This document shows, piece after piece, positions 1,644 through 40,190 of a DNA stretch of 54,990 bases (the first letter of the stretch is position 1; every line of letters begins with the position of its first letter). This stretch comes from a virus, in the IMG/VR virus record IMGVR_UViG_3300048813_000106, positions 1 to 54,990 of that record, one strand, 5' to 3'. Both the position numbers and the translations under genes were made by a program. The notes beneath the pieces are model-generated. The model was not told the DNA's origin. It saw only the letters and a list, made by a program, of their open reading frames with translations, and did not search any database.

Positions 1644-4018
1644 ACGCGCGTCAGATAAAAGCGCGGCGTCACGGTCACGACCACTTTGGATTCGTACGCC
1701 AGCTGCTCGGAAGCGGTAGTCACTTCCGGCGCGTCGGGAACCATCGAACTCAACTTGAGGAACATTTCCGTTTCCCCCGCAGGCAACTGCATCAACTGCC
1801 CCCCGAGCCCGTTATCGGGGTGCCCATTCTTCCCCGGCTTCGCGACGACCGCCGACAGGTTCGACTGGACCGTCTTGACGGTCGGGCCCACGTTCGCGAT
1901 GAACTTCGGGTAGGCCGCGTTATTGGGCTTGCTAGACGGAGAGCAGGCACGCTGCGAGGAGGGCACCAACAGCAGATAGTCGAGGCCCCACTGTGCCGCT
2001 TCGTGAGCGTACCCTTCGACATAGAGCTTCCAGATACGCGGAGCCAGCGGATTGACCAGCAAGTGCAGGGTCCCTAGCCGGGTGATGCGGAACTGTTCCT
2101 CTTCCTCGGGGAGCTGGACGCTACGCCCAGCGGACCCCCACTCGTCGGTATAGCGTGGAGCGCCGTACCCTACCCCGTCCTGGGGCTGGGCGGAAAGGAC
2201 AAGCATCGGGGGGTGCGGGAAGCCCTCTTCGTCGTTCAAAAGTTCGCTCAACATGACCCTAGCCCACACCTCGACAGCGATTTCCCCAGAGAAGCTGTCG
2301 GGGGTCATCGTCGCGGGGTCCACTTCCCAATAGGCGCTCCCGTTGCGTTCGCTCGCATGTAGCATGCTCCCTCCACGTGCCCCCGTCTGCGTGGTGTAGG
2401 TCCACCCGGACACTGCTACGGCCGTGGAGCTATCCAACAGTCCGAAGGGGGCGGTGGCGAGCCCAGCGGAAGGCTTAGGCGCCCACCCAAGGAGCGCCCA
2501 TATGCCGGGCGAATGTTCGATCCTTACCCGGCCGATCGCCCCAGCCGTGCGGGCTGTGAAGTAAACGTATTCACCCTGCACCGCAACCGCGACAGGTTCT
2601 CCGCTGGCCGCAGCCCAGGAGCCAAGTGGTTCGGCACCACCTAGGGTCGCTCGACCGATACTGGAGCCTCCTGGCGATGCCCAGTAGAGTTGGGAGATGC
2701 TGAGGCCCAAGCCGGCGGCCCCCGAGATACCAGAGAAGGATTCAAGGCCCGTACCGCTCACCGTGAACCGCGACACCACTCCTGTTTCCGCCTCGCTGAA
2801 GTAGACCGACGCCGCGTTTACGGCTATCGCAGCGATCCCGTAGGTCGGACTGGCGGCAAACCAGTGCTGTTCGACGGAGCCTCCTGCGATGGTCGCCCTT
2901 CCGACGTACCCCCCACCACACCAGTACACGTGGGTGCTGCTGACGGCTACCCCAGGAGAGGGCTGCAGTAGGGTGATCCAGGTCTTTTCGATAGTCCCCC
3001 CGGCTAGCGTCGCACGTCCGATGTAAGGGCTTGCGAGATTGGACCAGTACACATGCGTACCGTCCACGGTCACGCCGTAGGGTTCCCCTTCCGCGTGCAG
3101 CCACGTCAGTTCGGGTTTCGTGGGTTCGCTGACTTTGCAGCGCCCGATGTACCCGGTGGATGGCTGCGTGAAGTACACGTGTTCGCTATCGACCGCTAGC
3201 CCACTGGGTTTCGTCGCCCCCGTAATGAAAGCCGCCGTCGGTTCTTCCCCTGTTTCGATACTGACTTCCGCCAACGCGGGGGCATCCCCAGGGATCGCAG
3301 ACAGCGAGATTGTTTCCGGGAGCAACAGGCCCGATTTCACATACACGACCCCAGGCAGTCCCTGCGCGAGGGGACCTACCGGGATTTCCAGTGCGATCAT
3401 GAACAGGTTCGCGCCTTCCAGCGTCGCGTTTTCAAAGTTAGGTTCCCAGTGCCCGGCACCCCTGATTTCATACAACGTAGGGTTCGTCACTTCCCCAGGC
3501 TGCCAAAGGAGTAGAAGCTGAGTAGGGTTAGATTCGAGCTGCGCCAGGAGCGTCTCTACCTTTTCGATGGCTTCCTGGGCCGTGGTCCCCGCGACAGCGA
3601 CTTCCCAGTTCACGCTCCCGTTTTCGCTCACAGCCCCAACCTCGCGTGCGCCACCCCAACGCCGCTGATCCTGCGCCAATACCCGCGTCGTGACAGGGGC
3701 GACAACCTTGAAGCTGCCGCTCTTTATGAAGAAGTGCGCCGCATCGTTCAGGTTCAGCAGAGTTTCGTACGGTGCCGTAACGGACACGTTGATGCTGAAC
3801 GTGTTCACGACCCCCGTCACACCAGTCAGTTCCGTCGTACCGTTGATCCCGGTATAGCTAAATGCCTGGCTTGTGACGAGGTACGCTTCCCCGGCGGGAG
3901 GGAACCCAGCAGTCGATCCCACCTTGATGACGGTGGTGCCCGCTTTCACGTGTTCCGTAGTGAGCGTTTTGGCTCCTGCGGTCGCCTGCACGATCTGTAG
4001 CTTTTCCTTGAAGGCCAT
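1640..4018 (-). CDS. Minor tail protein with inserted six-bladed beta-propeller, 792 aa
   Basis: Last gene of the virion operon, directly below the tape measure gene (1 base apart). ATG at 4018 has GGGAG about 6 bases upstream. The first 65 residues carry the G-T-T-x-I-x-V and S-x-x-GFPPAG pattern seen in phage tail tip and fibre proteins. Residues about 265-505 hold six repeats with a V-x-V-x-x-x-x-V-Y-W/F core and a trailing IGRATLAGG-type strand, i.e. YWTD/NHL-like propeller blades. The C-terminal third (LNDEEGFPHPPMLVLSAQ onwards) resumes a tail-protein type beta fold. Position suggests distal tail or tail tip. The propeller may bind host surface glycan or protein. The exact tail-protein family is not certain. 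Confidence 0.75.
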   Translation of the reverse strand: MAFKEKLQIVQATAGAKTLTTEHVKAGTTVIKVGSTAGFPPAGEAYLVTSQAFSYTGINGTTELTGVTGVVNTFSINVSVTAPYETLLNLNDAAHFFIKSGSFKVVAPVTTRVLAQDQRRWGGAREVGAVSENGSVNWEVAVAGTTAQEAIEKVETLLAQLESNPTQLLLLWQPGEVTNPTLYEIRGAGHWEPNFENATLEGANLFMIALEIPVGPLAQGLPGVVYVKSGLLLPETISLSAIPGDAPALAEVSIETGEEPTAAFITGATKPSGLAVDSEHVYFTQPSTGYIGRCKVSEPTKPELTWLHAEGEPYGVTVDGTHVYWSNLASPYIGRATLAGGTIEKTWITLLQPSPGVAVSSTHVYWCGGGYVGRATIAGGSVEQHWFAASPTYGIAAIAVNAASVYFSEAETGVVSRFTVSGTGLESFSGISGAAGLGLSISQLYWASPGGSSIGRATLGGAEPLGSWAAASGEPVAVAVQGEYVYFTARTAGAIGRVRIEHSPGIWALLGWAPKPSAGLATAPFGLLDSSTAVAVSGWTYTTQTGARGGSMLHASERNGSAYWEVDPATMTPDSFSGEIAVEVWARVMLSELLNDEEGFPHPPMLVLSAQPQDGVGYGAPRYTDEWGSAGRSVQLPEEEEQFRITRLGTLHLLVNPLAPRIWKLYVEGYAHEAAQWGLDYLLLVPSSQRACSPSSKPNNAAYPKFIANVGPTVKTVQSNLSAVVAKPGKNGHPDNGLGGQLMQLPAGETEMFLKLSSMVPDAPEVTTASEQLAYESKVVVTVTPRFYLTRV

Positions 4019-4019
4019 G

Positions 4020-7000
4020 TCACACTCCCGGCGCTAGACGCTTACTTAGGCGAGACCCCTGATAGCGCATCCCGCGCACACTAGCCTTCCCGATCTCGGT
4101 GAGCACCGCCGGATCGGAAGGGTGCATCATGTGGTTGTGCTGCTCGAAGTGAACCGGAGGACCGTTGCCCCATTCGCGTTGCTCGGGAGTGAGGATTTCC
4201 TCTTGGCCGTGAACCAACGCTAGGCTTGGTGCGCCCCTCGCCCCAGGGACCACGCCACCGACATCGAAACTCGGAATCCAACTGGCGGGTATCAGCATGC
4301 CGCGTGCCCCGGCTGCAGCATAGGCGTTGAGGCCGCCCCGGCCGATGTCGCCCGGACCAGAGAACACGCTAAAAGACTGTTCCAGCACCTTTTCGTTGGC
4401 CGTCTTGATTTTGAGCTGTTCTTGCGCCTGCACGAGTTCGCGTTCCTTCAGTTCGAGCGGGGATTCCCCCGTGCCGCCGCCTTTGGCTTCCGCGAGCTTC
4501 AATTCCAACGCGGGGCCGCCGATAGCGGTCAGTTCCGCCCCGAGCTTCTGCAGCGTCAGCTGGGCGGTCAACATCGACCCGCCGTGTTCGGTGAGCCCCC
4601 CCAGGGTGTGCTGATCCCCTTTGACGGTTTCCGTGGCGGCATGGAGTTCGGAGACCTGTGTGTCGAGAGTCCCGATCTTCCCCGCGTCCCCGATGGAGGT
4701 CGCGTTCCCCCCGAGCTGGACGTTTTCTGCTTCGAGGGACTTGATCTGCTGGGCGGTGGAGTTGATTTCGCTGCCCAGCTTTTTGGCTTCCGCATGATCC
4801 GCTGCTGTCGCCTTCTTGCCCTTCGGGACTTTCGCCAGTTTCACTTCCAACGCGTGCCGGTGTTCGTGGAGGCGTTTGATCTTGTTGAGGTTCGCCTGGA
4901 TTTTCGCCTTCAGTTCGAGGATCGCCTTCGCGCGTTCCTTGCTGCCTTCCTCTGCCGCCTGCAGCACTGTGCTCGATAGTCCCCATGCGGTGTTCAAATC
5001 CCCTAGCAGACTGTTCTCGGTCCCGATGAGCCCTTCGAGCTGGTGCTGGCGTAGTTCGACGTTCCCCCACAAGATTTCAGGGTTCCCACCCGACGATGAG
5101 GACGACGTGTTCGCGAGGTTCGCCGTCGGACCCGTGTACGCCGAGTAGTAGCCGCCCCCCGATTCGCTCGGGGTGTAGATGAATTCCCCGCCGTGGGGTG
5201 CCGCCTGGAGCGCTAGTTCCGCCGCGTTACTCGACAGTTCGTACTGTTCGGTGAGGTCTGCCACAGCACCCGTTTCGCCCAAGAGGCCGTTCAGCTGGTC
5301 GTAGAAGCCCTGCCCCCACCATGTGGTCGCGAGCGGCTTGATTTTCTGGAACGGGTGAACCTTCCATGCGTCCACGGGATGAGGGAGCGGTTTCGCCTTC
5401 TTGGACTTGACCTTCCCAGCAGTGTCGAACACGTTGTGGGTTCCACCCGCGAAGCTCAGCAGGCCACCCGAGGCGAACCCGAGCAGGCCCCCGAGGCCGT
5501 AGAAGCCACGGCTCGTCTCGCTTGCCCACGCAGCCGTGGGGTTGCGGTACGTGGCCTTGATGTACTTCGCCATAGCGATGATCTGTTCGACGCCGCTCGA
5601 CCCAGGCCCACCGCCGTAGGCCGCCCAGTTCATACTCTCCAGTTGCCCGAGGCCGAACGCGGTGCTGGACGGGTTTTTGATGCTGACGACACCACCGGAC
5701 TCGCGGGCCACCACTTTTTCCCAGTCCGCGAGGCTCCAGCCTTCCTCTTTGGCGATGCCTCGCATGACCTGCACCCAGTCACCGGAGAACGACGCGCCGC
5801 CAAGAGAGCCACCACCCATGCCCGCGGAGTGCAGGCCAGCGATCTTGGCCTTCCCGGCCTTACGTACGTCTGAGAGCCCCGCCTGCACCACATCGGGGAT
5901 CAGGCCCCCAGAAGCCATGTAGTTCGGGGTGGTCACCGCGCCAAACAAGCCGGGAAGCCCGCCGTAGCCCATGTGTTCCAGGGCGGCGTTCACGATCGGC
6001 TGCTGGTGACGGTTGAACACAGCTACCTGCTCGCCAGCGCCGACCGCTATCGGCAGGCCCCCGACGTTCAAGCCAACCGTGTCGTGGCCAGCATCGCCTG
6101 GCTGCCCGATCTGCAGCAGTCCGCCCTGAGCCTTCCCGAACGGGGTGGGTTCGTTGCGGAGGTTGGTGCCTTTGCCTTCGACCGGCGCACCCGGCTTTGT
6201 CTGGCCGCCGAACCCTGCCCGGATTTCTGAGCCGCCGAGCTGCTTGATCTCCGAATTCAGTTCCTTGTTGATGCTCGCGATTTCCCTAGCGTTGAGTTCG
6301 CTAGCGGCCTTCCATTCTGTCTCAAACGCGGGGACTAGGCCACTGATGAGTTCGCGGGCCTTTTCACCCATTGGCCCCTTGTTGTTAGCGAAGATCGTCT
6401 GCAGGAATTTCAGGGCGTTCTCGGTGCCCGTCTCGGTATGTTTGAAGCTCACGCCAAATGCCTGTTCGATTTCGGTGAGGCCCGTCGTCACTGTCGCCTT
6501 GGCGTGCTCGAGATCGTAGGCTTTCGCTAGCGCGGCAGAGGTCGCTGACCCGTGCGCTTCGAGGTAGGCGGTCAGCCCTGAGAATTTCTGCTCCAGGGCA
6601 GTGATAAACCCGGCGACCGCGCCCTTCGGCAGGCGCCCTTCGGATTCGAGCTTCGCGGCATAGGCGAGCATCGTCTTCGCTGCCTCGCCCTGCGCTTGCT
6701 GAGGCAGCTTCGCGAGTTCATGTTCGACCGAGGTGAGGAACCCGAGGCGGCTCGGGAACCGGACGTGCTGGAACGCTTCGACGTATTCCCTGCCCGCTTC
6801 TTCACCGGCCTTGCGGTAGTCGCGGGCCTGCCCCGCCAGGTTCGCCCTCACGCCAACGAGACTCTCGCTGCCACGCCCGGTCACGATGCCACGCACGGTG
6901 GACTGTCCCGCTTCGTGGGCCGCTTCCAGCGCGTGCGTGATCGCGGCTTCGTGCGGTTTGCTGCCGAGCAGACCCTTACTCAGCGCGTTGACGGCGCTCG

Positions 7001-10000
7001 CGGTCTTCTCCGCTTCCTTCTTGAACGCGGGCTCACCCGAGGAGAACAGGTCACCGATGCCCTTGATGAGATAGGGGGCCGCGAACCCAAACGCCGCACC
7101 GATCGCGGTCCCCACGACAGGGGCAATCGTCGTGCCGATCAGGGCACCCGCCGCAGGCCCGAGGACGAAGCCCACGCCCGCACCCGCACCGCCTGCTTGC
7201 AGGCCGCTCGCGAGTGTGCCTTTCGCGCCAGTTGCGCTTGCTAGGAGGCTGCCACCGATGAGGCCACCAGCACCGTAGATTCCTGCTTTCAGCAGGTTGC
7301 TCTTGCTGAGAAGAGCAGCGAGGCCACCTCCCTCGGCGGTCAAGCCGCCAGCGGCGAGCATATCGGAGCCCTCCTGCGCCGCCATAGCCCTCTCGTATGC
7401 GCTGGCACCCGCTATGCCTGTCGTTCCCGCGAGTCCGCCCTGTGCCGCTGCATCCAGGCCACCTGCCGCCGCGTTCTTGTCCTCCTCCGCAGTCAGCAGC
7501 CCCGTCTCGACACCCGCTGCCTTCAGGAGCGGGACGAGTACTTTGAGCTTCGCCGTGATCAACGTCAAGCCGATCAACCAGGTCCCGAGCGCACCAGCTT
7601 TCTCGATCGCCGTCACGACTTTCGTGAACGCTTCCGCGATATCGGTGACAGCGTGCACCAGCGGCGGGGAGATCGTTGTGTAGATGTGCGAGAAGCTGGC
7701 GATCAGCGGCACCAGCGCGTCGAGCAGCGCGATGGCCTCTTCCTTGTGGACCGTGAAGATGTTTTTGATCGCGGCGCTACCGGCAGTCGAGTTCTCGTAT
7801 TCGTGAACTTTGTCCAGCATGTGCGTGAGCGCTTCGATGATCCCCTCGCCTGTGTGCGCATCCTTATCGAACAAGTCGAACAGGTCAGCCGCGAGGATCT
7901 TCACGAACGCGCCCCACACATGAAAGTCGGCGATGAGGCGGTTCATCTCGCCCTCCCACACCGAGAACTCGCTCGGGGTGTTCCACTTCGTGAAGAACTT
8001 GTCGAGGTCTCTGAGGAACCCTCCTGTCAACGGAGCGGTGTAGGCGACGGTCTTCGCGAAGAACTCAAAGCCCTGCGTGAGCGCTGCCATCGCGGTCGGG
8101 ATCTCGTTCTTGAACTCGCTCTCAAGCTGAAGGAAGATCCCCATACCTTCGGGACCCTTCAACCAAGCCAGGAGCGGCTTGATCGTGCTGTTGATGACCG
8201 AGAAGTTTTCCGTAGCAGCCCGCGCCACCAGCGGGATATACGCCTTGTCGAGTTCCAGGAGCTGCATCCCGATCTTCGACGCCTGCACCCGCGCCTGAGA
8301 GGTCTGCTTGTCCCAGTATTCGTTAAGGGACATCGCGGCCTTTGCGACCCCAGCCTCAGCCTTCACCCCAGCCGTGTTCCCCAATTCCGAGAACACATTG
8401 TTCAGTTCCTTCGTCGCTTCCTTCGCCTGTTCAGAGTCCTTGCCATACACCCGTACGGCCTTGTTGACCGCTTCATACGCCGTGTAGAGCTGCTTGGTGT
8501 CCGCGATCGTGGAGGACGCCACGACAGCATCGGAGCCCATGCCGACCCCGAGCTTCCCGGCCGCGCCAGCACCGAGCAGCGCACCACCCCCCAAAGCAGC
8601 GACACCCGAGCCGACGATCCCGCCTGCCGTGAGGATGATGTGCTCCGGCCCGAACCCAGCGAACGACCCGAGGGAGCCGATACCCGCACCGATGCCTGCC
8701 GCACCGACAGCGGCACGCCCCAGGATGCCGCCACCGACATAGCCGCCCCCGCCGCCACCTCCCCCTCCGTGGCCCCACAAGAGCGCCGTAAGCCACGGAG
8801 GGACCCCGCCCCCACCTCCACTACCCCCAGCGGCTCCCGTGGCAGCAGCGGCCTTCTCAGGCTCGTATAGCGCCGCCTGCGCTGCTGCCATGTCCGGGCC
8901 GAGAGCACTCAGGCCCGACCGAGGCCCCAACCCAGGGATACCGACCGCTCCAGCACCGTAAGGATGGCCCAGGAACGCCGCGAGCGCATCCGCCTCCGCT
9001 TTCGCATCTTCGGCCTTCTGCGCGGCCAGCAACGCCGCCTCAGTCGTCAGCCCATAGTTCCCTGTGCCGGGTTCTCCGCCGGGAGCGTAAAGACGCCCAG
9101 GACCACCAGCCACCCGAGAGGCGACCGTGTATCCGAGCGCTTCGTAGGCCGCACGGTAGGCGGAGCCGCCTTTGGCTACCTGCCCCGGCGCCAGATTCGC
9201 GGGGAGGGCTTTAGCCGCCTCCACAGCCAAAGCATCAGCGACAGCAGAGCCTGTCGCGTCCGCGACTTTCTGGTCCTCCTCAGTGATCCCAGCGATAGTC
9301 GTCGCCTTGCCCGCAGACGGCCGCTGAGCAGCCTCCAGGGCCGTAAGAGCCCGCGCCAACGAGCCTTCCATCACCTGCTGACGCTGAGCGTCCAAGCCGA
9401 TCAGCGCAGGGACAGCGCCCTTCTGGCGTTGCTGCTCCGCAAGCGGGGTCTCCCCCACAACCGTCCGGGTGTTGTTCCGTTCCGTACTGACCGACAGGGA
9501 CTCCGGGCCACCGCTCTGAGCATCCTCGCCGATAGCAGCAGCGAGAGACCCCAGCGGCGTACGGTCCGCAGCCGCGATAACGACCGTGCCCGGGTTCGTC
9601 GCGGAGAACGGGTGAGGCGTAGGACCCCGCACACCCCAAATCGCGGTATCAGAGGAGGTAGCTGCTACGTCACGGAGCGCCCCGTGACCCCCGATACCAC
9701 CCAGGATCGACCTAGCCAACGCCGAGCGGCCCGCAGCAGCCTCCTCCGCATCAGCAGCGGCTTTCGCAGCAGCGGCCTGGACTGCGTATGCCGCGACTAC
9801 CCGTCCCGACGCGGCGACCTGAATGTCCGCAGCGTCATCCGCCGTGACCGCCATCCCCACATACGCCGCGTCCGTCTCCTCGATGGAGCGACGGACACTC
9901 GCTAGGGCCGTATCCTGAGCCGCGCTCCACCACCCGATAGCGCCCGCGTGACTGTCGAGCCCTGCACCGAGGAGGCCACCCTCAACTCCTACGTGCAGGG

Positions 10001-10133
10001 TGTCGAGCACGCGCTGCATCTCGGCAGTCTTCGCCGTAACGCGCGCTAGGGCATCGTCAAGGTCCGCCCGCAACTGGACCAAGCTAGCCTCAAGGCCTAG
10101 GGTTGCGGAGCCGAGTGAGATCCCATCGGTCAT
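4020..10133 (-). CDS. Tape measure protein with lytic transglycosylase-like domain, 2037 aa
   Basis: The longest gene in the window, in the right place below the frameshifted chaperone pair. ATG at 10133 is preceded by GGGAGG. The N-terminal 400 residues are Ala-rich helical. A Gly-rich hinge with a run of nine Gly lies near residue 460. Hydrophobic Gly/Ala stretches follow near residues 490-540 and 980-1050. A soluble lysozyme/SLT-like domain spans about residues 1460-1570, with catalytic Glu candidate E1478 in VVARESGG, then AFGLGQLE and IKATYRNPTAAWA. Residues about 1690-1860 are predicted coiled coil. It sets tail length and probably locally degrades peptidoglycan during DNA entry. At roughly 0.15 nm per residue the tail would be near 300 nm long. 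Confidence 0.93.
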   Translation of the reverse strand: MTDGISLGSATLGLEASLVQLRADLDDALARVTAKTAEMQRVLDTLHVGVEGGLLGAGLDSHAGAIGWWSAAQDTALASVRRSIEETDAAYVGMAVTADDAADIQVAASGRVVAAYAVQAAAAKAAADAEEAAAGRSALARSILGGIGGHGALRDVAATSSDTAIWGVRGPTPHPFSATNPGTVVIAAADRTPLGSLAAAIGEDAQSGGPESLSVSTERNNTRTVVGETPLAEQQRQKGAVPALIGLDAQRQQVMEGSLARALTALEAAQRPSAGKATTIAGITEEDQKVADATGSAVADALAVEAAKALPANLAPGQVAKGGSAYRAAYEALGYTVASRVAGGPGRLYAPGGEPGTGNYGLTTEAALLAAQKAEDAKAEADALAAFLGHPYGAGAVGIPGLGPRSGLSALGPDMAAAQAALYEPEKAAAATGAAGGSGGGGGVPPWLTALLWGHGGGGGGGGGYVGGGILGRAAVGAAGIGAGIGSLGSFAGFGPEHIILTAGGIVGSGVAALGGGALLGAGAAGKLGVGMGSDAVVASSTIADTKQLYTAYEAVNKAVRVYGKDSEQAKEATKELNNVFSELGNTAGVKAEAGVAKAAMSLNEYWDKQTSQARVQASKIGMQLLELDKAYIPLVARAATENFSVINSTIKPLLAWLKGPEGMGIFLQLESEFKNEIPTAMAALTQGFEFFAKTVAYTAPLTGGFLRDLDKFFTKWNTPSEFSVWEGEMNRLIADFHVWGAFVKILAADLFDLFDKDAHTGEGIIEALTHMLDKVHEYENSTAGSAAIKNIFTVHKEEAIALLDALVPLIASFSHIYTTISPPLVHAVTDIAEAFTKVVTAIEKAGALGTWLIGLTLITAKLKVLVPLLKAAGVETGLLTAEEDKNAAAGGLDAAAQGGLAGTTGIAGASAYERAMAAQEGSDMLAAGGLTAEGGGLAALLSKSNLLKAGIYGAGGLIGGSLLASATGAKGTLASGLQAGGAGAGVGFVLGPAAGALIGTTIAPVVGTAIGAAFGFAAPYLIKGIGDLFSSGEPAFKKEAEKTASAVNALSKGLLGSKPHEAAITHALEAAHEAGQSTVRGIVTGRGSESLVGVRANLAGQARDYRKAGEEAGREYVEAFQHVRFPSRLGFLTSVEHELAKLPQQAQGEAAKTMLAYAAKLESEGRLPKGAVAGFITALEQKFSGLTAYLEAHGSATSAALAKAYDLEHAKATVTTGLTEIEQAFGVSFKHTETGTENALKFLQTIFANNKGPMGEKARELISGLVPAFETEWKAASELNAREIASINKELNSEIKQLGGSEIRAGFGGQTKPGAPVEGKGTNLRNEPTPFGKAQGGLLQIGQPGDAGHDTVGLNVGGLPIAVGAGEQVAVFNRHQQPIVNAALEHMGYGGLPGLFGAVTTPNYMASGGLIPDVVQAGLSDVRKAGKAKIAGLHSAGMGGGSLGGASFSGDWVQVMRGIAKEEGWSLADWEKVVARESGGVVSIKNPSSTAFGLGQLESMNWAAYGGGPGSSGVEQIIAMAKYIKATYRNPTAAWASETSRGFYGLGGLLGFASGGLLSFAGGTHNVFDTAGKVKSKKAKPLPHPVDAWKVHPFQKIKPLATTWWGQGFYDQLNGLLGETGAVADLTEQYELSSNAAELALQAAPHGGEFIYTPSESGGGYYSAYTGPTANLANTSSSSSGGNPEILWGNVELRQHQLEGLIGTENSLLGDLNTAWGLSSTVLQAAEEGSKERAKAILELKAKIQANLNKIKRLHEHRHALEVKLAKVPKGKKATAADHAEAKKLGSEINSTAQQIKSLEAENVQLGGNATSIGDAGKIGTLDTQVSELHAATETVKGDQHTLGGLTEHGGSMLTAQLTLQKLGAELTAIGGPALELKLAEAKGGGTGESPLELKERELVQAQEQLKIKTANEKVLEQSFSVFSGPGDIGRGGLNAYAAAGARGMLIPASWIPSFDVGGVVPGARGAPSLALVHGQEEILTPEQREWGNGPPVHFEQHNHMMHPSDPAVLTEIGKASVRGMRYQGSRLSKRLAPGV

Positions 10134-37795: not shown

Positions 37796-38247
37796 GCACA
37801 CAGCTCGCAGCCGTCGCGAAGCTCGACCGCGACATCCAAGCCGAACAGGAGCACGACCGTCGCGTCCGTGAGCGCCGCACAGGCCAAGAACTCACCCGCC
37901 TAAGTGCCGAGGACAGCAGACACGAACCACGCCGACACGACGACGAAAGCGAGAGAGTGATGTCCAGCAAGATCACCCTATATCAGGGCCAGCGCCTAGG
38001 AGCATCGGGCGAGTTCGTCTACTCGCCTTGGCGCCACGGAGGATGGTACGTGGACAACGTGCGTTACCCAAGCGGAGCGGTCGGGTGCGTAAGCCGCAAC
38101 TATGCAGATCGGAAGTGGCGCATCGTCTGTGATGACCGTGGATACCCAGGCGGTCCCGTGGATTACACCTACGCCAACCGCGACGCAGCTGCGCGTGCAG
38201 AGCGCGAGCTGATCGCCGCAGGCCTCCTCGGAAAGGAGGACTCATGA
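37792..38247 (+). CDS. Conserved actinophage hypothetical protein, 151 aa
   Basis: GTG at 37792 is in GTGA with the upstream stop. The first 55 residues are a charged helix. From the internal ATG at 37960 the protein has a beta core, WRHGGWYVDNVRYPSGAVGC and RKWRIVCDDRGY, known to me from many actinobacteriophages with unknown role. Both starts are possible. Confidence 0.65.
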   Translation: MSTQLAAVAKLDRDIQAEQEHDRRVRERRTGQELTRLSAEDSRHEPRRHDDESERVMSSKITLYQGQRLGASGEFVYSPWRHGGWYVDNVRYPSGAVGCVSRNYADRKWRIVCDDRGYPGGPVDYTYANRDAAARAERELIAAGLLGKEDS

Positions 38248-39203
38248 GCACAGAGCTAGCCCTACGACCAGAGCAGATCAGGGCCGAGATCGCCGCCGAC
38301 CCCGCACGCAGGGAGATGCTGAGAGAAGCAACCGCCGAACTACTCACCACCACGGAGAGCTTCATCACGCGGTACGTGGTGCTCCCTGACGAGGCCGCAA
38401 GCGCCGCCTGCGCGCTGTGGTGCTTGCATACATGGGTCCTCCCGGCCTGCGACTCCACGCCCTACCTGCTGCTCGTATCCAGCGAACCAGGCTCAGGAAA
38501 GACGCGAGCAATGGAAGCCCTTGGCTACCTCGTCAGACGACCGTGGAACACGTCAAGCACAACACCGACGGCCCTATTCCGGCGCATGGCCAGCGACCAG
38601 CCAACCCTGTTCCTGGACGAGATCGACACCGTATTCAAGGGCGGCTCCTCATACGAGGCCCTGCGAGCGATCCTCAACGCAGGGAACCGCAGAGGCGCCA
38701 CAGCCACACGCTGCGACGGGAAATGGGGCGTCGTGGAGTACGAGACGTTCGGCGCGAAGTGCCTCGCCGGGCTCGACAACGGGCACCTACCGTCCACCAT
38801 CCTCGACCGCAGCATCATCATTCACATGGTCAAGACGCAAGGCCAGACCGAGCGCCTACGGCCACGCCAAGCAGCCGCAGAGGCCGCACCACTCGCTCAC
38901 ACATTGGAGGCATGGGCGAGCATCGTCGTAGACGAGCTGGCGGCTATACGGCCCGATCTACCCCCGGAGCTTTCCGACCGTGCAGCTGACGCGTGGGAGG
39001 CTCTGGTGGCCCTCGCTGAGTTCGCTGGGGATGAGTGGGCGTCACGAGCCCGCACGGCCGCACAAGCCCTCACAGCGCCCTCTCACGGGATACCTGTAGA
39101 GCCAGCGCCCGAGATGGAGCTTCTTCCCAGCATGGTGGCGCTCATGCAGCCCAACACATCAACAGATGGGGTATCCACTTTGATGGCCCGGAGGGAGAGA
39201 TGA
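38244..39203 (+). CDS. DUF3631-like P-loop ATPase/helicase-type protein, 319 aa
   Basis: ATG at 38244 (ATGA). Walker A SSEPGSGKT (residues 79-87), Walker B TLFLDEID (121-128) and FGAKCLAGLDNGHLPSTILD then SIIIHM as sensor region. The end (ADAWEALVALAEFAGDEWAS, ARTAAQAL) is the usual C-terminus of DUF3631 proteins. These are ATPases found with phage and plasmid replication genes. The bulk of the long N-terminal primase part found in some relatives is absent. Likely acts in DNA replication. Confidence 0.8.
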   Translation: MSTELALRPEQIRAEIAADPARREMLREATAELLTTTESFITRYVVLPDEAASAACALWCLHTWVLPACDSTPYLLLVSSEPGSGKTRAMEALGYLVRRPWNTSSTTPTALFRRMASDQPTLFLDEIDTVFKGGSSYEALRAILNAGNRRGATATRCDGKWGVVEYETFGAKCLAGLDNGHLPSTILDRSIIIHMVKTQGQTERLRPRQAAAEAAPLAHTLEAWASIVVDELAAIRPDLPPELSDRAADAWEALVALAEFAGDEWASRARTAAQALTAPSHGIPVEPAPEMELLPSMVALMQPNTSTDGVSTLMARRER

Positions 39204-40186
39204 GGGATGACCTCACGGTCGGCTCCCTTTTCAGCGGGATCGGAGGGTTCGACCTCGGGCTTGAGCGCGCAGGCATGCGAGTGCTCTGGCAGTGCGAGGC
39301 AGATGGGTTCTGCCAGCGCGTTCTCGCCCGTCACTGGCCTGGACTCCCCATCTATCCAGACGTGTCCAAGCTGCGGGCAGCCGACTGTGCGCCCGTCGAT
39401 GTGCTCTGCGGAGGCTTCCCCTGCCAGGACATCTCCCTCGCCGGCCGAGGCGGCGGCATCCAAGACGGATCACGCTCGGGTCTTTGGCGGGAGTTTGCTC
39501 GGCTCATTGGGGAACTACGACCCCGCTACGTCGTCGTTGAGAACGTCCCAGCTATCACTTCTCGAGGACTCGACATCGTGCTTGCAGACCTTGCCGCGTG
39601 CGGGTTCGATGCGGAGTGGGACCATCTACCAGCGTCGGCCTTTGGCGCCCCTCACCGCCGCGATCGGTTCTGGCTTGTTGCCTACCCCGACTCAAGTGGA
39701 TGGGACGGGAGGACCGGGGCGCTCGGAGAAGCGAACGGGCGGCGACAATCTGCGGACTGCGGTGGCGATCCCGACGCCAACGGTGGGCGACTCCAAGAGC
39801 GCGCGCAACTCGACGGCGAAGCGCAACCGCATCCCGCCAACGGGGATACACGCCGGCAACACCCTGACGGACTTCGTGACGATGTGGCCGACGCCGACCA
39901 GGATCGACGCCGAGAAGGCATACGCGAGCCCGCCGGGACCGACGAACGACCGAGGCCGGGAAACCCTCTCGGGAGCGGTGCAGGCGATCCCCACGCCCAC
40001 AAGCAGCCGCAGGACGGGGCTGCAATCGCATGGGGTCAATGTCGTCACTGGCTCGCTGAACCCGACGTGGGTCGAGTGGCTCATGGGGTTCCCCTTCGAG
40101 TGGACCGACTGCGGGGACTCGGTAACGCGCTCGTCCCGCAAATTGCGCAATGGATCGGGGAAAGGATCATCGCGTGGGCCAGCTAA
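39200..40186 (+). CDS. Cytosine-5 DNA methyltransferase, 328 aa
   Basis: ATG at 39200 (ATGA, GGAGGGAG upstream). All key motifs are there: I (VGSLFSGIGGFDLGLERAG), IV with catalytic Cys75 (GGFPCQDIS), VI with Glu114 (VVENVP), VIII (APHRRDRFWLVA), and IX/X at the end (RVDRLRGLGNALVPQIA). The target recognition part is Asp/Gly/Arg-rich and low in order. It transfers a methyl group from SAM to cytosine C5. No cognate endonuclease is visible, so self-protection against host restriction is likely. About 790 bases also encode another protein. Confidence 0.92.
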   Translation: MRDDLTVGSLFSGIGGFDLGLERAGMRVLWQCEADGFCQRVLARHWPGLPIYPDVSKLRAADCAPVDVLCGGFPCQDISLAGRGGGIQDGSRSGLWREFARLIGELRPRYVVVENVPAITSRGLDIVLADLAACGFDAEWDHLPASAFGAPHRRDRFWLVAYPDSSGWDGRTGALGEANGRRQSADCGGDPDANGGRLQERAQLDGEAQPHPANGDTRRQHPDGLRDDVADADQDRRREGIREPAGTDERPRPGNPLGSGAGDPHAHKQPQDGAAIAWGQCRHWLAEPDVGRVAHGVPLRVDRLRGLGNALVPQIAQWIGERIIAWAS

Positions 40187-40190
40187 GTAG
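39399..40190 (+). CDS. Out-of-frame protein inside the methyltransferase gene (PTPT/VEWLMGFP family), 263 aa
   Basis: Reads in another frame from about ATG 39399, while the frame is open from 39207. The product has SPARTSPSPAE at its start, SLGNYDPATSSLRTSQLSLL, LPRAGSMRSGTIYQRRPLAP, four PTPT units (LPTPTQ, IPTPTV, WPTPTR, IPTPTS) and NPTWVEWLMGFPFEWT near its end. I recognise this as a real phage protein family of unknown function that usually stands beside methyltransferase genes. Here both frames are protein-like over about 790 bases. It has no clear Shine-Dalgarno, which weakens the case. Confidence 0.6.
   Translation: MCSAEASPARTSPSPAEAAASKTDHARVFGGSLLGSLGNYDPATSSLRTSQLSLLEDSTSCLQTLPRAGSMRSGTIYQRRPLAPLTAAIGSGLLPTPTQVDGTGGPGRSEKRTGGDNLRTAVAIPTPTVGDSKSARNSTAKRNRIPPTGIHAGNTLTDFVTMWPTPTRIDAEKAYASPPGPTNDRGRETLSGAVQAIPTPTSSRRTGLQSHGVNVVTGSLNPTWVEWLMGFPFEWTDCGDSVTRSSRKLRNGSGKGSSRGPAK

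Follow-up and report, generated by a model that had tools for sequence, protein, structure and literature searches.

A second selected reading frame within a phage C5-cytosine methyltransferase gene probably encodes the other chain of a split enzyme

Introduction

Can the gene of a phage DNA methyltransferase encode a second protein in another frame of the same strand, and if so, what is the second protein for? The question is raised by a locus in a viral DNA stretch of 54,990 nucleotides (IMG/VR record IMGVR_UViG_3300048813_000106; hereafter, the window), which is of phage origin: portal, terminase and major head protein were matched in it with PHROGs. In this locus a C5-cytosine methyltransferase frame (M) is accompanied by a second open frame (S) at +1 relative to it. 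To our knowledge, long same-strand overlaps in which both frames are under selection are rare in prokaryotes. An earlier sequence-only reading of the window had proposed that S encodes a member of a separate phage protein family, and that this family arose by overprinting of the methyltransferase gene. Here we followed up this proposal with comparisons of homologous loci, frame-by-frame measures of selection, profile alignments and structure prediction.

Results

The catalytic core of a C5-methyltransferase (motifs I–VIII, with GGFPCQ, ENV and GAPHRRDR) and motif X (GLGNALVPQ) are both present in M (Table 1). However, the PF00145 match (E 8.1e-38) was confined to 2–165 of 324, and the target-recognition domain and motif IX expected of such a chain are not in M; motif IX sits in the S frame. 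The gene had been described as complete with motifs I to X, which is right for I–VIII and X, whereas alignment to the canonical profile is limited to the core. Alignment of M with canonical C5-methyltransferases by hhalign likewise covered the core (E 2e-44), and M matched phrog_363, labelled DNA methyltransferase, with E 2.4e-77. In the AlphaFold model, residues 1–165 were mostly predicted with pLDDT >90, in a core resembling M.HhaI (Foldseek 1.3e-15) and M.HaeIII (Foldseek 8.8e-15), and the final two 10-residue blocks reached 94–95. Residues 172–184, 186–210, 215–247, 264–277 and 287–295 had pLDDT <50 and no predicted secondary structure. With most of the stretch between core and motif X modelled at this level, M alone appears to be an incomplete enzyme. 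The stop codon of the upstream gene overlaps the start of M in an ATGA, which suggests translational coupling. No nuclease gene adjoining the M/S gene was seen in the part of the window scanned.

Table 1. Positions in the window of the two frames, their motifs and the neighbouring gene
Feature	Coordinates	Strand	Details
Upstream gene	38244..39203	+	TGA stop overlaps M start (ATGA 39200-39203)
M, C5-cytosine methyltransferase frame	39200..40186	+	328 aa, ATG 39200, stop TGA
M motif IV (catalytic, GGFPCQDIS)	39410-39436	+	
M ENV box	39539-39556	+	
M motif VIII	39644-39682	+	
M motif X GLGNALVPQ	40115-40141	+	
Motif X and C-terminal helices, M frame	40115..40183	+	AlphaFold helical residues 301-327 (predicted); omega_M 0.25
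S, second protein, +1 frame relative to M	39399..40190	+	263 aa, probable start ATG 39399, stop TAG 40188-40190
ARTSPSP in S	39423-39443	+	
RTSQLSLL in S	39540-39563	+	
PTPT unit 1 of S	39681..39692	+	
PTPT unit 2 of S	39771..39782	+	
PTPT unit 3 of S	39888..39899	+	
PTPT unit 4 of S	39990..40001	+	
NPTWVEWLMGFP in S	40059-40094	+	
Methyltransferase motif IX in S frame (LNPTWVEWLMGFPFEWTD)	40056..40109	+	hhalign
Overlap 1: M motifs IV–VIII and S N-terminal part, both constrained	39410..39682	+	omega, stop counts
Overlap 2: unstructured linker in M (predicted); PTP-repeat, putative target-recognition segment in S	39683..40056	+	omega, pLDDT, xTP frame

All the features that the sequence-only reading had named in S (ARTSPSP, RTSQLSLL, four PTPT units and NPTWVEWLMGFP) are present, and ARTSPSP is, as it had stated, an out-of-frame reading of the catalytic GGFPCQDIS box, namely the +1 reading of PCQDISLA within motif IV of M. 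Its position of 39399 is retained as the probable start of S; the end had been placed at 40186, and the stop codon in fact ends at 40190. The S frame stays open upstream of this ATG as far as another at 39207. No Shine-Dalgarno sequence is visible before ATG 39399 in the window gene, and nothing clear was found by way of a start codon or Shine-Dalgarno sequence conserved for S across homologous loci. S matched phrog_1008, also labelled DNA methyltransferase, with E 5.6e-34 over 41–281 of 329, most of the family. Modelled alone by AlphaFold, S was predicted poorly (pLDDT 58.5, pTM 0.28).

An open second frame might be nothing but a shadow, cast by the conserved motifs of M together with GC-rich codon usage. 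When the window gene was recoded with M-synonymous codons, S was kept open by chance in 9.4% of recodings. The four PTPT units are less readily expected, since in 2000 recodings such units appeared at a mean of 0.35 with a maximum of 3. Since the open frame in the window alone is thus only mildly surprising, the window gene by itself was rejected as proof of S, and homologues were used. Searching by tblastn with S yielded 66 phage records and at least 593 IMG/VR stretches; relatives of M were gathered by an independent scan.

The S frame was then examined in 95 non-redundant viral loci after recoding of M by synonymous codons taken from M itself. Stops in S numbered 9 over motifs IV–VIII where 204±14 were expected, and 8 from VIII to X where 122±10 were expected. 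No depletion was found in these loci upstream of motif IV (208 observed, 218 expected) or around and downstream of motif X (204 observed, 183 expected), and the third frame had none comparable (239 against 283 and 529 against 539 expected). Only loci with an open M frame had been admitted, and the M-stop part of the reverse test was therefore set aside. Conservation of S residues exceeded the recoded null with z 65 in overlap 1 and z 95 in overlap 2. Bias from picking loci by S was ruled out, as 30 loci picked by M alone gave the same depletion (4 stops against 83 expected, and 2 against 48). Bacterial-genome loci matching both profiles had 23 S stops against 179 expected, and annotated phage loci had 4 against 31.

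Nor is the +1 frame intrinsically open over any C5-methyltransferase: in 28 canonical enzymes from 60 Pseudomonadota genomes, S-frame stops showed no depletion (119 against 114 expected). In a FastTree of the cores, from which SEN4-type loci were omitted because their cores aligned over too few columns, the S-bearing enzymes formed one clade with support 0.97, apart from 27 canonical enzymes. Because the depletion is found in S-bearing loci but not in canonical enzymes, S is a property of one clade and not of the fold. GC-rich codon usage does not account for it either, since in Clostridioides phage phiC2 (L263), at GC 0.35, S is open with zero stops against 6.5 expected. The comparative evidence for coding by S is decisive, and the S protein is under strong purifying selection.

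Selection was then resolved frame by frame in 33 disjoint, independent pairs, each substitution being sorted according to what it changes in M and in S. Before motif IV, omega_M was 0.23 and omega_S 1.02. Over motifs IV–VIII both frames were constrained, with omega_M 0.22 and omega_S 0.57 (0.48–0.66). From VIII to before IX the relation was reversed, with omega_M at 1.02 (0.92–1.15) and omega_S at 0.49 (0.39–0.64). At motif IX, omega_M was 0.86 (0.70–1.18) and omega_S 0.41, and around motif X the values were 0.25 and 0.74. A simpler count of rates by codon position agreed with these results. Between VIII and X, then, the amino acids of M drift neutrally while S is conserved, and M was shown to be without a conserved, or in the model folded, region there. 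M's D/G/R-rich "target region" amounts to S read neutrally in the other frame. The earlier suggestion that two frames constrain this region was well founded, M's own sequence being the neutral one.

The sequence-only reading had named stop codons, or substitutions at random, in the second frame of homologous loci as evidence that would count against it. With that comparison run, dual coding stands: S is a second protein-coding frame over the methyltransferase, and the evidence for its dual coding and selection is strong. Some S residues over motif IV, ARTS among them, exceed the conservation predicted from recoding by little or nothing, as a shadow would have it; yet the near absence of stops, the canonical control and an omega_S of 0.49 where M is neutral refute the shadow reading for the clade, and we give it practically no credence.

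What, then, does S encode? On profile alignments, its C terminus is methyltransferase motif IX. The C terminus of window-type S aligned by hhalign with that of S from split-type loci (E 1.2e-10), which carries IX and X, and the latter aligned with motifs IX–X of canonical enzymes (E 3.6e-5); a direct alignment of window-type S with canonical enzymes was marginal (E 0.015) and fell on the same columns. Through this chain of alignments LNPTWVEWLMGFPFEWTD is read as motif IX. In the split-type loci (L004, L005, L006, L174, L181), M ends just after VIII and S carries the PTP segment, IX and X. Streptomyces phages Lilbooboo and phi-BT1, Mycobacterium phages Camperdownii and TiroTheta9, and Arthrobacter phage KBurrousTX all have an M that stops after VIII, and their S frame continues past PTP repeats as far as FxEWxMG...IGNGV.

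Three architectures were counted, related contigs being taken separately. Motif IX lies on S (+1) and X on M (+0) in 181 loci, the window type; both lie on M in 31 loci (L003 and L376, for example); and in 18 loci both lie on S, while M breaks off after VIII. The xTP motifs between VIII and IX lay mostly in the +1 frame in all three, with counts in frames 0/+1/+2 of 0/422/6 in the window type, 4/107/1 where IX and X are on M, and 0/75/6 where they are on S. The PTP array itself is divided in L371, L372 and L422, with the first units on S and the later units, IX and X on M. Since the PTP, IX and X pieces are able to sit on either chain, the simplest view is that they are parts of a single enzyme.

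These layouts bear on three further explanations of S. Descent from a one-frame enzyme, which the motif IX homology and the mobile frame boundaries fit, would also be expected if S were a relic, that is, an old C-terminal half that was frameshifted away and is no longer translated. Present-day pairs show S to be under purifying selection (omega_S 0.41–0.57), which, together with the near absence of stops, makes this extremely improbable.

A programmed +1 ribosomal frameshift after VIII, fusing the M core to the C terminus of S in one full-length polypeptide, would suit the split-type loci, where M breaks off and S goes on with all that is missing. However, both the conservation and the openness of S reach back to about motif IV, well before any plausible slip site, so that a start of its own is favoured. 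Moreover, in the window type M carries X and S carries IX, and in other loci the PTP segment is on S but IX and X are on M; such mixed layouts would need two opposite shifts. We consider a frameshift very unlikely.

S might also be an independent phage protein (DNA-binding, clamp-binding or anti-restriction) born by overprinting, and not an enzyme subunit at all. Its own N-terminal segment over motifs IV–VIII is conserved beyond the demands of M, as the z score and omega_S of that overlap indicate, and a clamp-binding-like motif, Q[LM]x[LM][FLPIM], is found ahead of motif IV in 19 of the 95 loci where 0.7 would be expected under M recoding; in the window S the motif is not visible. Against independence, S bears motif IX of a methyltransferase and in some lineages X, its pieces shift between S and M across lineages, and M on its own has no conserved stretch from VIII to X. 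In addition, three S-type queries found no S without a methyltransferase core among 191 further viral loci, one edge-truncated contig apart, and the earlier expectation of family members away from the methyltransferase was not borne out. An independent protein is therefore unlikely, though less so than a frameshift. S does belong to a recognised family, phrog_1008, but not to one separate from the methyltransferase, and the view that this family arose by overprinting of the gene is not supported. Only the N-terminal half of S, over motifs IV–VIII, appears to be overprinted on the catalytic core.

Discussion

We consider it likely that one gene encodes both chains, M and S, of a split C5-cytosine DNA methyltransferase of the M.EcoHK31I kind. 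M would be the catalytic chain, in which motifs I–VIII are predicted to fold as a SAM-binding core, followed by a putatively disordered tether of about 130 residues, the "wrong-frame" reading of S, and then by motif X. S would have its start within M, close to motif IV, and would comprise an N-terminal segment, the PTP-repeat segment and motif IX. The two chains may be translated from one mRNA and would assemble into one enzyme, to which M would bring catalysis and motif X, and S motif IX; the PTP segment of S probably supplies target recognition. Such an enzyme would probably methylate phage DNA, for example against host restriction.

M.HhaI and M.HaeIII, with whose catalytic core M shares its predicted fold, have core, target-recognition domain, IX and X all in one frame. 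These single-chain enzymes differ from the window in this respect, and the canonical enzymes sampled are without an S frame. M.EcoHK31I belongs to a restriction-modification system, and its small chain is reportedly encoded inside the gene of the large chain in another reading frame, just as S of the window is coded inside the gene of M in the +1 frame. M.EcoHK31I (YGGCCR) and M.AquI (CYCGRG) are described as two-polypeptide C5-methyltransferases (PMC3404938). The same account assigns motifs I–VIII, X and a predicted target-recognition domain to the large chain of M.EcoHK31I, and motif IX alone to the small chain (PMC3404938, citing Lee, Kam and Shaw 1995, doi 10.1093/nar/23.1.103). The enzyme resembles the window in that the large chain has I–VIII and X without IX, which is on a second polypeptide, and probably differs in having target recognition predicted on the large chain (PMC3404938), since M of the window is neutral and predicted to be disordered there. 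The constrained PTP segment of the window lies in the second frame; the M.EcoHK31I prediction speaks against placing target recognition on S.

For M.AquI, the same account places motifs I–VIII on the alpha chain, and the distal variable region, IX and X on the second chain (PMC3404938). This resembles the split-type loci; unlike M.AquI, M of the window retains X and continues past the motif IX of S rather than ending after VIII. Another protein concealed in the other frame of a phage methylase gene is found in the ShiLan domain, an out-of-frame HNH endonuclease (PMC11855218). That case is a homing insertion with an HNH nuclease, whereas in the window nothing is inserted and the second frame appears to carry part of the enzyme; an insertion of the ShiLan type was rejected for S as a different thing (PMC11855218). 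The entries of phrog_1008 and phrog_363, the two PHROGs families matched by S and M, are silent on their shared DNA, and a literature search covering few of the subscription journals found no published description of the S-bearing clade.

A wider reading seems to us slightly better than an even bet. It holds that, throughout an ancient clade of C5-methyltransferases found both in phages and in bacterial genomes, the enzyme is read from two overlapping frames, with a target-recognition subunit in +1, a sequence-free tether in the first chain and a frame boundary that has slid along recognition segment, IX and X. Beyond M.EcoHK31I, this would add the spread and age of the two-frame arrangement and the place of the constrained recognition-like segment. 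The overlap of M and S is deep, in one well-supported clade, and extends across phages and many bacterial genomes, with the canonical enzymes as a clean outside control; the layouts line up as a natural series, with segments of a single protein changing frame from one layout to another. If the split-enzyme reading of the gene is true, many annotations as "DNA cytosine methyltransferase" denote one half of an enzyme, the search for its target-specific part has been made in the wrong frame, and M expressed alone would often be inactive. If the clade-wide reading is also true, single-methyltransferase annotations would stand for two-subunit enzymes, and the low-GC enzymes of Streptococcus, Clostridioides and Blautia phages would belong here, perhaps with P1 Dmt.

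Several observations were made alongside. In the low-GC loci (Clostridioides phiC2, L263; Streptococcus Javan269, L265; a Blautia phage, L266), S is shorter and has a LLDILEDEVHEKYFLS-like ending just past VIII, with zero S stops in the core against 3.6–6.5 expected. By eye, the +1 frame of the cytosine-methylase part of Escherichia phage P1 dmt (L264) contains an open stretch that ends ...LLSQVLEQTSIPQRYFLSSKACAGILRR..., like the S of the low-GC phages. At L018:1961-3052, M has an in-frame stop in the catalytic box (GGFP*PCQDLS) and S is open, which may be a sequencing error or a dead enzyme. A chromosomal two-frame methyltransferase of Proteus mirabilis (L234:2980-4840) adjoins a tyrosine integrase; a convergent Cys-rich ORF there (3866-4840, minus strand) could be a restriction enzyme, with no Pfam match above threshold. 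GenBank annotation is uneven: among L003, L002 and L007, Rhodococcus ReT1v-2 and Microcystis Mwe-JY08 have the S frame annotated at the locus and not M, and Paenibacillus Bloom has both frames annotated as DNA cytosine methyltransferase. Mycobacterium phage SG4 (gp64) and Paenibacillus phages possess both frames. Sequences such as QLTLF or QMELP, which resemble a sliding-clamp-binding motif, are frequent in the start region of S directly before motif IV (L007, L099, L115 and L158, for example). Elsewhere in the window, an ORF of 2037 residues (4020-10133, minus strand) has a sub-threshold transglycosylase match and is perhaps a tape-measure protein.
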